Below, one piece after another: positions 1 to 4,618 of a DNA stretch of 32,920 nt. The translations under genes were made by a program, and so were the position numbers. A model generated the notes under the pieces. It was given only the letters and a program-made list of their open reading frames with translations, made no database searches and had not been told where the DNA came from. The stretch covers positions 1-32,920 of the forward strand of contig JAGGXZ010000002.1 in the NCBI GenBank assembly GCA_021162805.1. The letters are read 5' to 3'. Each line of letters begins with the position of its first letter. Positions within the stretch are counted from its first letter, which is position 1. The stretch comes from Candidatus Poribacteria bacterium (lineage in GTDB: Bacteria > Poribacteria > WGA-4E > B28-G17).

Positions 1-279
1 GATAGTGGGATCATCCAATTTTTTCAATCTTTTGAATGTCAGTTTCCTGGCAGAGACCTTCAGTTTAAGCTTCTGAGCAGCTTGAAACAGGTTCAACATG
101 GTAGTTCCGCCTTTCTCGTCGACCCCAGTCAAAAGGCAGATCTCCTCAAACGATGCCGGTATGTTAAACAGTTTGCATATAACGAGCAATGACTTGGGGC
201 CACAGAAAGTCTCTTCAGGAGAACCACTTTGAACGATGAAAAGAGATATGAACAACAGGTAACTGATAGCAGCTTTCAT
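1..279 (-). CDS. Secreted C39-like cysteine peptidase, N-terminal part (cut by window edge)
   Basis: Only the first 93 codons are in the window; the gene runs off position 1. The product starts with a signal peptide (MKAAISYLLFISLFIVQSG), followed by a CGPKSL motif with Cys26. This is the usual position and context of the catalytic cysteine in peptidase family C39 (bacteriocin-processing type). A helix and a hydrophobic GVDEKGGTTMLNLFQAA stretch follow, as in that family. The catalytic His and Asp would lie beyond the window. I chose ATG at 279 because GGGAG precedes it; an in-frame ATG at 294 has no ribosome site. Known C39 enzymes either form the N-terminus of peptide ABC exporters or stand alone; this one has a signal peptide, so it is probably periplasmic. 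It lies downstream of two genes for cysteine-rich secreted proteins on the same strand, which suggests but does not prove that it processes or folds with them. Confidence 0.7.
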   Translation of the reverse strand, partial: MKAAISYLLFISLFIVQSGSPEETFCGPKSLLVICKLFNIPASFEEICLLTGVDEKGGTTMLNLFQAAQKLKLKVSARKLTFKRLKKLDDPTI

Positions 280-581: not shown

Positions 582-976
582 TCAAGGACATGGTCCGTAA
601 TCAGTTAGATCATAGTCGGTACCACTTTTCAGAACCGTACTATAAACCACTTCTGTGCAATGATAGTCCTCATACCTGATGTATACGCATTCAGCCCTCT
701 CTCCCACAGCGGTACACACTCTCCAACCGGAATCCTGTTGGACATCCGTGCAGAACTCTCTGTTCTTGTTTTCAATGGTGAAGAAACCCTCCTCCGGACA
801 GGTGACGGGGTACAGTCTGGCGTTGCCATCATACCAACCGACTTGCAAGTTCCTACTCCGTATAGATGAACCATGGCATCCTTTCTCAGCTCGGCTTGGT
901 CTGCTCTTACGCCTAGCACGACGATGCTCACGGCTAGAACAGCTACTATTAGGTTCCACAGCATCCATCTTCTCAT
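582..976 (-). pseudogene. 8-cysteine secreted small protein, second copy, frameshifted
   Basis: This is a paralogue of the intact gene at 2692-3084. It starts at ATG 976 behind AAAGGAGGTGA and encodes a signal peptide (MRRWMLWNLIVAVLAVS...), then the conserved GVGTCK and DCTP blocks. At about 804-806 one base is missing relative to the paralogue: the codons after DCTP shift, and the remainder (TCPEEGFF ... TDYGPCP) continues in the next frame to the TGA at 582. All eight cysteines of the intact copy are present if the two frames are joined. Either the gene is recently broken, the read has an error, or expression needs a frameshift; there is no clear slippery heptamer, so I favour the first two. 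Confidence 0.75.
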
Positions 977-1008: not shown

Positions 1009-1731
1009 TTACTTGGGATAATCCCAGGGTAACAAACCGCCCACGTATTCTCGTAGTTTGCTGAAATCCGTCCCACCTCTGTTCCCCAGAACCGCTTCTG
1101 GAAAATATCTTTCGAGCGTATCGAACCATATCTTTGACAATTCTTTATGCCTTTTTTCCAGCTTATCCTGCTTTTTAATGTAAGGATAGTAGTATTTCAT
1201 ATACCAATCTCCATCTAGGAGTCCGGTCTTCGGATCTCTGCTCCTCTGGAATTGTTCATAGAGTCTTCTATTTATAGCTGCTATCTCATTAATCTGATGA
1301 GAGAGCTCATTCATCTCCTCCCACACCCATGCGATGCTCTCAAGAATTTCATAAAGCCTTTGTTGCTCCGGCGTGCGTTGAGTGCCAGACGTTGTTCCTT
1401 TTGTTTCCTCCTCAGGCTCTTCCTCTACCTTCTCCTCTCCCATGTCCGATTCAACTTCGGGATAAACCCCCTGCTCACTCCCCTCTTCCTTTCCTTCCTT
1501 GGCGAAGTACTCATCTAGCAGTCTGTTGAATTCCTCAAATGTGAAATCCTCTTCCTCCTTCTGCTCCGCCTCTCTCATCGTCATCCTCGCAGGTGCAGAT
1601 GCTCCCTCCTCTCTCTCAACCTTCGCCTCTTTTACCTTCAAGGTGGGTTTCTTCCCCCTCAGATGTAATATCCAAATGCCTATAACGATCAACAGGGCGA
1701 GACATACCCCGACTATCATGTATCTTCTCAT
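1009..1731 (-). CDS. Membrane-anchored protein sharing the C-terminal domain of the sigma factor
   Basis: The 240-residue product has one N-terminal membrane segment (about residues 5-23), a charged linker rich in Glu and Lys, and a C-terminal domain clearly homologous to residues about 263-440 of the sigma-factor fusion at 3133-4455. Shared blocks are FTFEEFNRLLDEYFAKEGKE, TTSGTQRTPEQQRLYEILES, a DPKTG..DGDWYMKYYYP block and the ending YVGG.LPWD. It has no sigma-factor part. The DNA of the shared blocks is nearly identical in places, so the duplication is recent. ATG overlaps the stop of the upstream gene (ATGA at 1728-1731), indicating translational coupling. I do not recognise the domain. 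By topology it would face the periplasm and could compete with, or pair with, the sigma factor's domain. Confidence 0.8.
   Translation of the reverse strand: MRRYMIVGVCLALLIVIGIWILHLRGKKPTLKVKEAKVEREEGASAPARMTMREAEQKEEEDFTFEEFNRLLDEYFAKEGKEEGSEQGVYPEVESDMGEEKVEEEPEEETKGTTSGTQRTPEQQRLYEILESIAWVWEEMNELSHQINEIAAINRRLYEQFQRSRDPKTGLLDGDWYMKYYYPYIKKQDKLEKRHKELSKIWFDTLERYFPEAVLGNRGGTDFSKLREYVGGLLPWDYPK
1297..1530. repeat. Recent segmental duplication, copy A
   Basis: DNA blocks in this stretch are near-identical to those at about 3416-3645 inside the sigma-factor fusion. Examples are the run around TTTCATAAAGCCTTTGTTG, CGGCGTGCGTTGAGTGCCAG and TTGGCGAAGTACTCATC. Together with the paired 8-cysteine genes, this shows that a [C-terminal domain + peptide] unit has been duplicated. 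Confidence 0.8.
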
Positions 1732-2636
1732 CGCCTAATCTTCCCTTCCCTGTGATCCATGACCCAATCAACCTCATTGGTGGGCATCTGAAACATCCCA
1801 AAGGGGATATCTTCATTCGCCTCAAATTCACTAAATTCGACTGCTTTCTCCGTGATGAGAACCTCTTTCCCACTCACCTCCGAGAAATATTGCGCTTTGA
1901 CCTTCACCGGATACCAAATTGAGTCGGTATACCGATCTAATACAACTTGGACCACGCTTCTCCTACCCGACAACTGATTAACTATCTCCACAGGACGATA
2001 TCCCTCAGAGGGACTTATCAGAAACTGAACCGTTTTCTCAGGTCGGGTTATCACCAACCGGTAGTATGTCTGACCATCTATCCTCTCCTTATGAAATGAA
2101 GCTCCATATCTCTCCACGTATTCCCCAATAGGGGTACCGAAGTAGGTCAACCAATATCTGGGATCGAACTCAGCCGCTTTGAAGGGATCGCGAGCAGGGG
2201 AGAAGATATGTCTTTCACTTGTGGAGTGTCCACCTTCACGTTTTCTCCTTATCGTCTCGATTATCTTCTCCCCATCGAACCTATACTCCTGAGATTGGAG
2301 CACTTTTCTTTTCACCCCTTCGAACTCCTCATCGTAGTAGTGGTATCTGATCATCCTTTTCATTGGTCCACTTGCTTGGAACTCCCCCCAGTATTCGGTT
2401 ATTCTGGGTTTTTCCAGCTTATCTCCCCACATGGAGATGTATTCTATGTTTTGCTGCCTGACCGAGGTGGAGTATGAGTGGAGCAACACATCAGCGTATT
2501 TGATCCCTTCGATAAGGAGATCATACTCCGAGGATGAAGGGGTTTCTCCTCCGCTCTGTAGGATCACCCAGATAGTTATTCCAATTATCAGTATTCCTGC
2601 GATGAATCCAACGAATCTCTTGAATAGTTTTGCCAT
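1728..2636 (-). CDS. Anchored LolA/MucB-like envelope protein
   Basis: The 302-residue product begins MAKLFKRFVGFIAGILIIGI, one membrane anchor (about residues 8-26), followed by a beta-rich domain of about 270 residues. The start at 2636 is preceded by GAGGAG; the open frame extends 18 codons further up, but through a G-tract hairpin with no ribosome site. The pattern of short alternating strands (EYISMWGDKLEKPRITEYWG, MIRYHYYDEEFEGVKRKVLQ, VQFLISPSEGYRPVEIVNQL) resembles the LolA/LolB/RseB fold, which binds lipoproteins or hydrophobic peptides. This is a fold guess, not a motif identification. RseB-type proteins regulate envelope sigma factors, and this gene sits in an operon with one. Confidence 0.6.
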   Translation of the reverse strand: MAKLFKRFVGFIAGILIIGITIWVILQSGGETPSSSEYDLLIEGIKYADVLLHSYSTSVRQQNIEYISMWGDKLEKPRITEYWGEFQASGPMKRMIRYHYYDEEFEGVKRKVLQSQEYRFDGEKIIETIRRKREGGHSTSERHIFSPARDPFKAAEFDPRYWLTYFGTPIGEYVERYGASFHKERIDGQTYYRLVITRPEKTVQFLISPSEGYRPVEIVNQLSGRRSVVQVVLDRYTDSIWYPVKVKAQYFSEVSGKEVLITEKAVEFSEFEANEDIPFGMFQMPTNEVDWVMDHREGKIRR

Positions 2637-2691: not shown

Positions 2692-3084
2692 TCAAGGACA
2701 TGGACCGTAATCGGTTAGTTCGTAGTCGGTTCCAGTTTCAATATTGTGATATATCACCTCGGTGCACTCGGAAGTTTCATAGATCCAAGTTTCACACTCC
2801 TTCCGCGTACCAACAGCTGTACACTGTCTCCACCCATTATCCTGAGTGACATCGGTGCATTGTTCAACACCATAGTTCTTCTGGGTAATGTAACCGCTTT
2901 CAGGACAGGTGGTAGGAGTGCAATCCTCCCTCGCAGGTGTTACTATCGCCTTACAGGTTCCCACACCATACATGGACGCCATCACGTCCTTCTTCAGTTC
3001 AGCTTGATCTGCCTTCACGGCTAACACAACGACGCACACGGCGAAAGCTGCCAGTATGGCGTTCCATAACGTCCATCTCTTCAT
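2692..3084 (-). CDS. 8-cysteine secreted small protein, intact copy
   Basis: The 130-residue product has a positive N-terminus and a hydrophobic stretch (MKRWTLWNAILAAFAVCVVV). A plausible signal-peptidase site follows AVKA at residue 25, leaving a mature chain of about 105 residues. This carries eight cysteines (44, 55, 60, 76, 88, 97, 107, 129), an even number consistent with four disulfides. The ribosome site AAAGGAGGTGA is near perfect, and the same site precedes the second copy. Conserved blocks are YGVGTCK, DCTP, TCPE.G, CTAVG and TD..LTDYGPCP. I know no named family for it. It lies 48 bases after the sigma-factor fusion and before a strong stem-loop. It could be an exported effector peptide, a structural Cys-rich protein or a substrate of the C39-like peptidase; there is no double-glycine leader, so classic C39 leader cleavage is not supported. 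Confidence 0.75.
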   Translation of the reverse strand: MKRWTLWNAILAAFAVCVVVLAVKADQAELKKDVMASMYGVGTCKAIVTPAREDCTPTTCPESGYITQKNYGVEQCTDVTQDNGWRQCTAVGTRKECETWIYETSECTEVIYHNIETGTDYELTDYGPCP

Positions 3085-3132: not shown

Positions 3133-4455
3133 CTATTTGGAGTCCCATGGCAATGGGCCACCCACATACTTCCTTAGTTTGTTGAAATCCACACTAATCT
3201 GGTTTCCACTTTCGGTTATAGCCTCCGGGAAATATCTCCTCAGGGTACCATAGTATATCTTTCTCAATTCTCTATCCCTTGCGTCCAACTCACCCATTTT
3301 CTTTTCGAGCGGGTAGTAATATTTCATATACCAATCCCCATCGATCATCCCTGTTTTGGGATCTCTAGGCATCACCTTATTTAGCTCAGACAGTTGTTTA
3401 GCAATATCTGCTCTCTGATGAGAGAGCTCGTTCATTTCATCCCACACCCATGTGATGCTCTCAAGGATTTCATAAAGCCTTTGTTGTTCCGGCGTGCGTT
3501 GAGTGCCAGACGTTGTTTCCTTTGTTTCTTTCCCTGGCTCTTCCTGCTTTTTTCCCTCATTCACGTCCGGTTTAACATCAGGATAAACCTCCTGCTTATT
3601 CCCCTCTTCCTTTCCTTCCTTGGCGAAGTACTCATCAAGCAGCCTGTTGAATTCCTCAAAGGTGATCACATCTTTCTCCTTTTTCGGCTTCGGTTTCCTC
3701 AAAGCTACCCTTGCTGGTGCTCTCACGCTCGCCTGCCTCTCAACCGTCATCTCGTTGGACTCAGGCACAGGCTTTTCCTCCCCACGGTGACTCATCCATA
3801 TCCCCGCCCCTGCAAGCATTATCACAGCTACACCCGTTATCGCCACCTTCGTCGTGGCCTTCATAACAACACCTCCTATCATCTTCCCGATTTTCCCCCA
3901 TGGGAAGATCATCATCATGCCGCTCAGCCTCCTCAGAACCTTCTCCCTCACCTTCTCCTTCGCCCTCTTCACACGCATCACAACAGCATGATATGACAGA
4001 CCATACTTCTCGCTTAGCTCCATATATCCCTTCTCTTCCAGAAGATACTCCCTCAGTATCTCCCTCTCTCCCTCTGGAAGCTCGTCCATCGCCCTCATGA
4101 CCTCCTCCACCATCTCCCTCCTCAGTAGCTCCTCATCTGCCGGTGGAGAGAGCAAATCCTCAGATGCCACCTCGTCAAGGGGTATGCAGCTTCTTCTCAC
4201 CCTCCTCTTCAGCCGATTTATCGCCAAGTTACATGTTATGCTCCTTAGCCATCTCTCGAACGCATTTTGATCTCTCAATCCGCTCAGATGAAGGTGAACT
4301 TTCAGGAAGACCTCCTGAGCGATCTCCTCGGCCTCGTCGGGATCATGCAGGATGGAGAGGGCAGAGAGGAAGACGGTATGGCGGTATTTCCTCACCAGTT
4401 CCTTGAAGGCGGATTGGTCTCCCGATATGATTCTCTCCAGCAACTCCTTCCCCAT
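3133..4455 (-). CDS. Membrane-anchored ECF-type sigma factor with novel C-terminal domain
   Basis: The 440-residue product starts with an ECF sigma factor. Region 2 is about residues 14-82 (AFKELVRKYRHTVFLSALSI, DEAEEIAQEVFLKV, FERWLRSITCNLAINRLKRR). Region 4 is about 120-175 (MDELPEGEREILREYLLEE, SEKYGLSYHAVVMRVKRAKE). A single membrane segment follows (about 203-221), then a charged linker, then a domain of about 180 residues shared with the gene at 1009-1731. The topology puts the sigma domains in the cytoplasm and the C-terminal domain outside. I chose ATG 4455 because GGAGG precedes it; the open frame reaches a TTG at 4482 without support. ECF factors fused to transmembrane anti-sigma-like parts are known in some lineages, but I do not recognise this C-terminal domain. 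A natural model is envelope sensing by the outer domain with control or proteolytic release of the sigma part. Confidence 0.85.
   Translation of the reverse strand: MGKELLERIISGDQSAFKELVRKYRHTVFLSALSILHDPDEAEEIAQEVFLKVHLHLSGLRDQNAFERWLRSITCNLAINRLKRRVRRSCIPLDEVASEDLLSPPADEELLRREMVEEVMRAMDELPEGEREILREYLLEEKGYMELSEKYGLSYHAVVMRVKRAKEKVREKVLRRLSGMMMIFPWGKIGKMIGGVVMKATTKVAITGVAVIMLAGAGIWMSHRGEEKPVPESNEMTVERQASVRAPARVALRKPKPKKEKDVITFEEFNRLLDEYFAKEGKEEGNKQEVYPDVKPDVNEGKKQEEPGKETKETTSGTQRTPEQQRLYEILESITWVWDEMNELSHQRADIAKQLSELNKVMPRDPKTGMIDGDWYMKYYYPLEKKMGELDARDRELRKIYYGTLRRYFPEAITESGNQISVDFNKLRKYVGGPLPWDSK
3416..3645. repeat. Recent segmental duplication, copy B
   Basis: Partner of the block at 1297-1530. 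The high base identity covers the shared C-terminal-domain coding DNA and stops before the membrane segment, which differs between the two genes. Confidence 0.8.
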
Positions 4456-4485
4456 CGTTTTTCCCTCCATATATATAGACAACGA

Positions 4486-4496
4486 TTCAGGCGTTT
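4486..4496 (-). promoter_or_regulatory. Motif AAACGCCTGAA, copy upstream of the sigma-factor gene
   Basis: Identical 11-base copy of the motif at 392-402, here 30 bases before the sigma-factor start codon and followed by TCTATATATATGG. It might belong to the promoter of the sigma operon. Confidence 0.3.
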
Positions 4497-4618
4497 TTTA
4501 ACAAAAAATTTCGTTTCAAGGATGGAGGCGGTGAGTCCGTGAGGATGAAATCGCCCCTCGTCTCCCTCAGAAAATATATAGAGGGTGTTTCGGAGGGGTT
4601 TTAACGGGAAAAATTTCG
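4496..4618. repeat. AT-rich direct repeat upstream of the sigma-factor gene
   Basis: TTTTAAC, one to three variable bases and AAAAATTTCG occur twice: 4496-4513 and 4599-4618 on the plus strand. The pair lies in the 178-base gap between the sigma-factor gene and the TPR lipoprotein gene, where no gene is seen. It could be a duplicated protein-binding site. Confidence 0.35.

Follow-up and report, generated by a model that had tools for sequence, protein, structure and literature searches.

A sigma factor gene of Candidatus Poribacteria with a built-in membrane anchor carries a conserved internal start and probably encodes two proteins

Few membrane-tethered sigma factors have been studied. One characterized example is IutY of Pseudomonas putida, a sigma/anti-sigma hybrid of group ECF243, which is tethered and then released by Prc and RseP (PMC9249621, PMC5411451) and whose requirement for RseP is lifted by removing the membrane segment (PMC5411451). 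The actinobacterial groups ECF48, ECF52 (SCO4117), and ECF53 likewise join an ECF sigma factor to a C-terminal membrane helix and an extracytoplasmic extension, and release by proteolysis has been proposed for them (PMC8999054). Another kind of precedent comes from Cas11b (PMC11899642) and the CTP1L endolysin (PMC4777826), in which a single reading frame yields a long protein and, from an internal ribosome binding site, a short C-terminal partner; the long and short forms of the endolysin assemble (PMC4777826). No internal in-frame product of a sigma factor was reported in the literature that we searched, and the IutY mutagenesis paper nowhere mentions an internal start.

We analyzed a 32,920-nucleotide stretch of a Candidatus Poribacteria genome (GCA_021162805.1, contig JAGGXZ010000002.1), referred to here as the window, whose reverse strand carries a gene for a 440-residue sigma-membrane helix-tail fusion (3133 to 4455). 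The gene runs from an ATG at 4455 to a stop codon at 3133 to 3135, and its Shine-Dalgarno (SD) sequence, GGAGGG at 4463 to 4468 (reverse strand), lies 7 nt upstream of that ATG. Based on Pfam matches that both exceed the gathering score, residues 20 to 87 constitute ECF sigma region 2 (4195 to 4398, reverse strand; Sigma70_r2, PF04542, E = 9.9e-11) and residues 117 to 168 constitute region 4 (3952 to 4107, reverse strand; Sigma70_r4_2, PF08281, E = 3.3e-06). Region 3 is absent, the composition that defines ECF (group 4) sigma factors. In the AlphaFold2 model of the fusion protein, the sigma2 and sigma4 domains are confident and the membrane segment and linkers are of low confidence; the sigma part of the predicted model matches AlgU and SigE.

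A single segment, VAITGVAVIMLAGAGIWMS (residues 204 to 222; 3790 to 3846, reverse strand; hydropathy, 1.96), was called as membrane spanning from hydropathy and composition rather than with a topology program. The 15 residues that precede it include three Lys/Arg and no acidic residue, and acidic residues follow it, suggesting that the N terminus lies inside the cell. Only ∼35 residues, without Cys or His, separate region 4 from the helix, leaving no room for an anti-sigma domain. Pfam and NCBIfam recognized neither an anti-sigma domain nor a zinc finger in the fusion protein, and no domain at all C-terminal of residue 180; no anti-sigma domain was recognized among the products of the neighboring genes. 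These results bear out much of a sequence-only reading of the window, which had placed ECF regions 2 and 4 and then a transmembrane helix in one chain, with no separate anti-sigma factor.

The same reading had described the outer part as one 180-residue domain, a point that structure prediction did not uphold. The extension instead comprises a disordered linker, a short conserved helix, TFEEFNRLLDEYF, that is common to the paralogues (residues 265 to 277; 3625 to 3663, reverse strand), a second linker, and a helical hairpin of ∼110 residues. A helix predicted by AlphaFold2 at residues 266 to 281 coincides with the conserved motif, and the hairpin, together with a small strand pair (residues 322 to 432; 3160 to 3492, reverse strand), was predicted with a pLDDT of ∼90 or more and was reproduced when AlphaFold2 was run on the tail alone. 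A similar motif, QISAEEMQQIEDFFAQLDEAD, occupies the place of TFEEFNRLLDEYF in two families of related fusions, f6 and f7. Searches with the tail against Pfam, NCBIfam, PADLOC, and PDB sequences returned no match. The hairpin has no significant PDB relative by sequence or fold, and the fold search of the tail returned generic coiled coils only, none with an E value below 0.001. An NTF2/SnoaL-like assignment for the tail at a related locus (L195) was dropped when Pfam gave it no support. We consider it plausible that the tail is a sensor.

The order of sigma2, sigma4, one membrane helix, and a periplasmic part, with little cytoplasmic room for an anti-sigma domain, resembles that of IutY (PMC9249621, PMC5411451). 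Unlike IutY, the fusion has no FecR-like periplasmic domain, based on Pfam and NCBIfam searches after residue 180 and a PDB search of the tail, and no adjacent TonB-dependent transducer was found among the neighbors scanned, up to the contig end. The internal translation start, sigma-less partner genes, and tandem families described below also set it apart from IutY. ECF48, ECF52, and ECF53 have a zinc-finger anti-sigma region N-terminal to the helix, whereas the corresponding ∼35 residues here contain no recognized domain. By the features tested, the fusion is not a member of the IutY/ECF243 or ECF48/52/53 groups. Membership in a described ECF group with known regulation was the outcome that the sequence-only reading had set against its own proposal; such fusions do exist, and their extra domains were not found here. 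The layout of sigma factor, membrane helix, and outer part is itself already known; the novelty lies in the internal start, which is conserved, and in the repeated occurrence of a sigma-less partner.

The DNA just 5′ of the membrane helix reads ATAGGAGGTGTTGTTATGAAG and contains, within the sigma-TM frame, a perfect SD sequence (AGGAGGT; 3871 to 3877, reverse strand) 7 nt from an in-frame ATG (Met198; 3862 to 3864, reverse strand). Initiation at this codon would yield a putative 243-residue product (3133 to 3864, reverse strand) with the membrane helix and outer tail and no sigma domains. Among fusion genes with the membrane segment in register, we scored an SD core of at least 5 nt located 4 to 12 nt upstream of an in-frame ATG or GTG just before the helix. 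Across four families, 40 of the 49 related genes retain both SD and start, a count whose statistics are overstated because the genes are not independent, the real support being some three to four old lineages. By family, the pair occurs in 6/7 genes of the source genome, 18/25 of f6, 4/4 of f7, and 12/13 of f3, compared with 16%, 1.3%, 3.2%, and 3.0%, respectively, of the other in-frame ATG or GTG codons in the same genes. Some f6 paralogues no longer have the SD.

All 49 aligned genes have a start codon at the site, if one gene is permitted a shift of one residue. Met accounts for 92% of this column, compared with at most 65% for other Met-majority columns, and all three Met-to-Val changes (two of the three are related) are written GTG. 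The surrounding residues vary by family (IGGVVMKATTK, YSGGLTVMKVGT, AWGGILLMTKTTK), and the only columns conserved at more than 90% in this stretch are the Gly-Gly pair, the start codon, and one Lys (one Gly column is at 84%). A conserved SD and start inside a reading frame, as in genes with an internal in-frame product, is found here; the evidence for this product is its conservation, in contrast to Cas11b and the CTP1L endolysin. Our conclusion is that two proteins are probably produced from this gene: the sigma factor tethered to the membrane, and a version of its sensor that lacks sigma. This two-product form of a membrane-tethered sigma gene appears to be undescribed.

Sigma-less forms also occur as genes of their own. 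As had been noted from the sequence, the outer domain is encoded alone next door to the fusion, by a 240-residue paralogue (1009 to 1731, reverse strand; 59% identity over 235 residues) that combines its own N-terminal hydrophobic helix with a fusion-type tail. Such a partner adjoins the fusion in four cassettes (59, 26, 52, and 35% identity), three of which lie elsewhere than the cassette in the window. In the related genome G003, the sigma-less gene directly follows the fusion gene, is 76% identical to its tail module, starts precisely at the corresponding Met, and is provided with a GGAGG of its own. The free-standing sigma-less gene of G006 starts at the equivalent Met, as does C12, a broken copy in the source genome. 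In the G020 cassette, the f2-type fusion lacks the internal SD, and another gene encodes the same tail without sigma (52%). The conserved internal start, the free-standing genes, and the G020 partner are together most simply explained if the sigma-less anchor-plus-tail is a functional product, supplied either from an internal start or by a neighboring gene.

At least eight full-length fusions, counting the one at 3133 to 4455, are encoded in the source genome assembly (4.35 Mb, 232 contigs), along with partial and sigma-less copies, and dozens of intact fusion frames occur in three other families. Used as a 242-residue query, the tail of the window copy had no match outside its own genome in 39 relatives, so we followed architecture and motif instead of tail sequence. 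A membrane-segment extension is present in 40 of 57 sigma frames examined at same-class loci, compared with 0 of the 80 best-matching named-genome loci, mostly from other phyla, with loci in this comparison chosen by similarity rather than as a random sample. With frames intact and both order and motif conserved, the architecture is real and far beyond chance. Tandem fusion arrays occur in G012, G022, G044, and G003. In a FastTree phylogeny of sigma domains, f1, f3, f6, and f7 fusions are placed apart from f2 fusions and named sigma factors (support, 0.87), and the source-genome fusions form a lineage-specific clade. The rpoB identity of the source genome is 72% to G006, 65% to G003, 61% to G020, 61% to the genome with locus L114, and 62% to Gemmatimonadetes; poribacterial locus L114 and same-class G020 share 69% DNA identity over 563 nt. 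These values fit a member of the class that contains Candidatus Poribacteria, but Gemmatimonadetes is just as distant by rpoB, so this placement depends on the taxonomic class assignment.

Several related loci differ in form. Three adjacent sigma fusions in G012 (L193:6603-11522) have a reading frame that is interrupted in the outer linker or tail region, which could reflect decay, assembly error, or switching. Three ECF sigma factors of the source genome (L040:9268-11064, L041:6658-8634, and L042:7524-9338) have C-terminal extensions of 420 to 480 residues without a clear membrane helix and represent a different fusion type. At L194 and L197 (G022 and G035), f6 fusions alternate with repeated exported proteins starting MQRRYNL...AQIVFxSxRDG, which are probably TolB-like propellers.

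A targeting pause is a serious alternative to the internal start. In the single-product view, the SD-like sequence and Met would be kept either for the amino acids that they encode (Gly-Gly for flexibility, and a residue beside the helix) or as a programmed ribosome pause aiding helix insertion. SD-like pauses help membrane-protein targeting in E. coli; the published pauses, however, come after the first helix, ∼35 codons in, and proteins in which more than 80 residues precede the first helix lack early pauses (PMC4359368). GGAGG is a common way to write Gly-Gly in the source genome (GGA-GGN is favored, at 38%), as a single product would allow, and the site is not unusually unstructured; its predicted mRNA openness is ordinary rather than above average, and we dropped openness as a sign of initiation. 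Invariance of the GGA codon was likewise dropped as proof of an SD by itself, the neighboring Gly codon being equally invariant in f6 and f7. A pause nevertheless accounts for neither the invariant start codon nor the use of GTG each of the three times that Met was replaced by Val. Paralogue C8 encodes Leu-Glu-Val at this place, yet GGAGGTG still precedes the ATG in another reading frame, and f2 fusions do without the SD, with a core anywhere in 84 nt in 3/14 versus 43/52. Weighing these points with the free-standing genes that start at the equivalent Met, we regard a single product as rather unlikely.

The route to activity may also differ from release. In a ToxR- or CadC-like manner, a signal could cause the tail to oligomerize and RNA polymerase to be recruited to membrane-near promoters by a sigma factor that stays uncleaved. 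The protein has no anti-sigma domain and no recognized protease site, and the long coiled outer hairpin of the model suggests assembly, all of which would suit such a scheme. A sigma factor must bind the RNA polymerase core, however, and the RseP requirement of IutY, the one characterized protein of this layout, also speaks for cleavage, so that we judge activity at the membrane unlikely. It seems to us very improbable that repeated duplication of the cassette has simply left behind a recent or decaying fusion that serves no regulated function. Broken copies do occur (the second copy of C150, C12, C109, and the frameshifted second Cys-rich copy in the window) and copies are located at contig ends, but the many intact long frames in the source genome and in three other families, and the conservation of motif and start, had already disfavored this explanation.

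The cassettes encode Cys-rich exported proteins, an exported protein, and a C39 peptidase fused to DUF1573, with a sulfatase-modifying-type protein, cytochromes, and a CcpM-like radical SAM enzyme as occasional members. At L036:5632-7185, such a CcpM-like, peptide-modifying enzyme lies between the sigma fusion and the sigma-less partner. The window encodes an exported Cys-rich protein of 130 residues with nine Cys (2692 to 3084, reverse strand) and an exported protein with an N-terminal hydrophobic helix (1728 to 2636, reverse strand) whose relatives recur in cassettes elsewhere; neither belongs to a Pfam family. A second Cys-rich copy (582 to 976, reverse strand) has a frameshift near 810 when compared with the first and could be a broken duplicate or an assembly error. 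Flanking genes on the contig encode TPR, PEGA, Cys-rich, and exported proteins. Exported C39-type peptidases fused to a DUF1573/OS_HP2-type domain (1 to 279, reverse strand; L031:3128-4528; L032:2947-4386) occur in 17 of 40 related genomes, whether or not the sigma gene accompanies them.

Several of the Cys-rich exported proteins of the cassettes have a double-glycine-like leader ending. Those at L031:1667-2065, L033:2193-2627, L037:775-1185, and L202:12761-13138 carry the stretch L[ST]xEEMxxxxGG after the signal helix, which resembles double-glycine leaders, and C39 peptidases adjoin. The Cys-rich proteins and C39 peptidases possibly form a peptide export or maturation system, and the gene neighborhood by itself suggests that what is being controlled is the export of Cys-rich peptides. 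Before the sigma gene, we identified by eye, with no statistical test, a promoter-like element, TTTTTTGTTAAAAAA-N13-GTCTATATATAT (4469 to 4508, reverse strand). Such a CGTCTATA-type element, with variable spacing of the −35 part, lies directly upstream of fusion genes, including the paralogues, and is absent before other cassette genes (also by eye), a distribution that suggests autoregulation. The source genome encodes one RseP and two Prc proteases, both of which are nearly universal.

Taken as a whole, these data are best explained by a tethered ECF sigma factor accompanied by a sigma-less form from the internal start, with assembly of the two and proteolytic release, a reading to which we assign a probability of roughly 55%. 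The sigma factor's own C-terminal helix would hold it at the inner membrane while the tail lies outside the cytoplasm, and the second in-frame ribosome binding site and start just before the helix would give rise to an anchor and tail without sigma. Long and short forms may assemble via the outer helical hairpin, and the sigma-less form could thereby set the dose or threshold of the sigma-bearing form. Because an anti-sigma domain would not fit, we infer that tethering itself is the off-state and keeps the sigma factor from RNA polymerase. An envelope signal, plausibly one that involves the exported Cys-rich peptides and the C39-type proteases encoded in the cassette, might trigger trimming of the tail and then intramembrane cleavage by RseP, and the freed sigma factor would transcribe its own cassette. 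Release by RseP-type proteolysis is the leading model by analogy, given the IutY layout, the activation of IutY by Prc and RseP, and the presence of genes for both proteases here.

Tentatively, and at somewhat less than even odds, we propose that these genes form a previously undescribed class of ECF sigma genes, each with two products, in which a sigma-less sensor copy assembles with the sigma factor and controls its release, a separate neighboring gene supplies that copy elsewhere, and the genes are tandem-expanded and coupled to Cys-rich-peptide export cassettes. The conserved internal start and the recurrence of the sigma-less partner, which were absent from the first reading of the sequence, offer a directly testable prediction. 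If this proposal is correct, the stoichiometry of the sensor would be encoded within the sigma gene itself, and one-protein-per-gene annotation would overlook half of the system. The genes would also reveal a mechanism by which ECF sigma factors are controlled with no anti-sigma factor at all, in a bacterial class that is largely uncultured and includes Candidatus Poribacteria.
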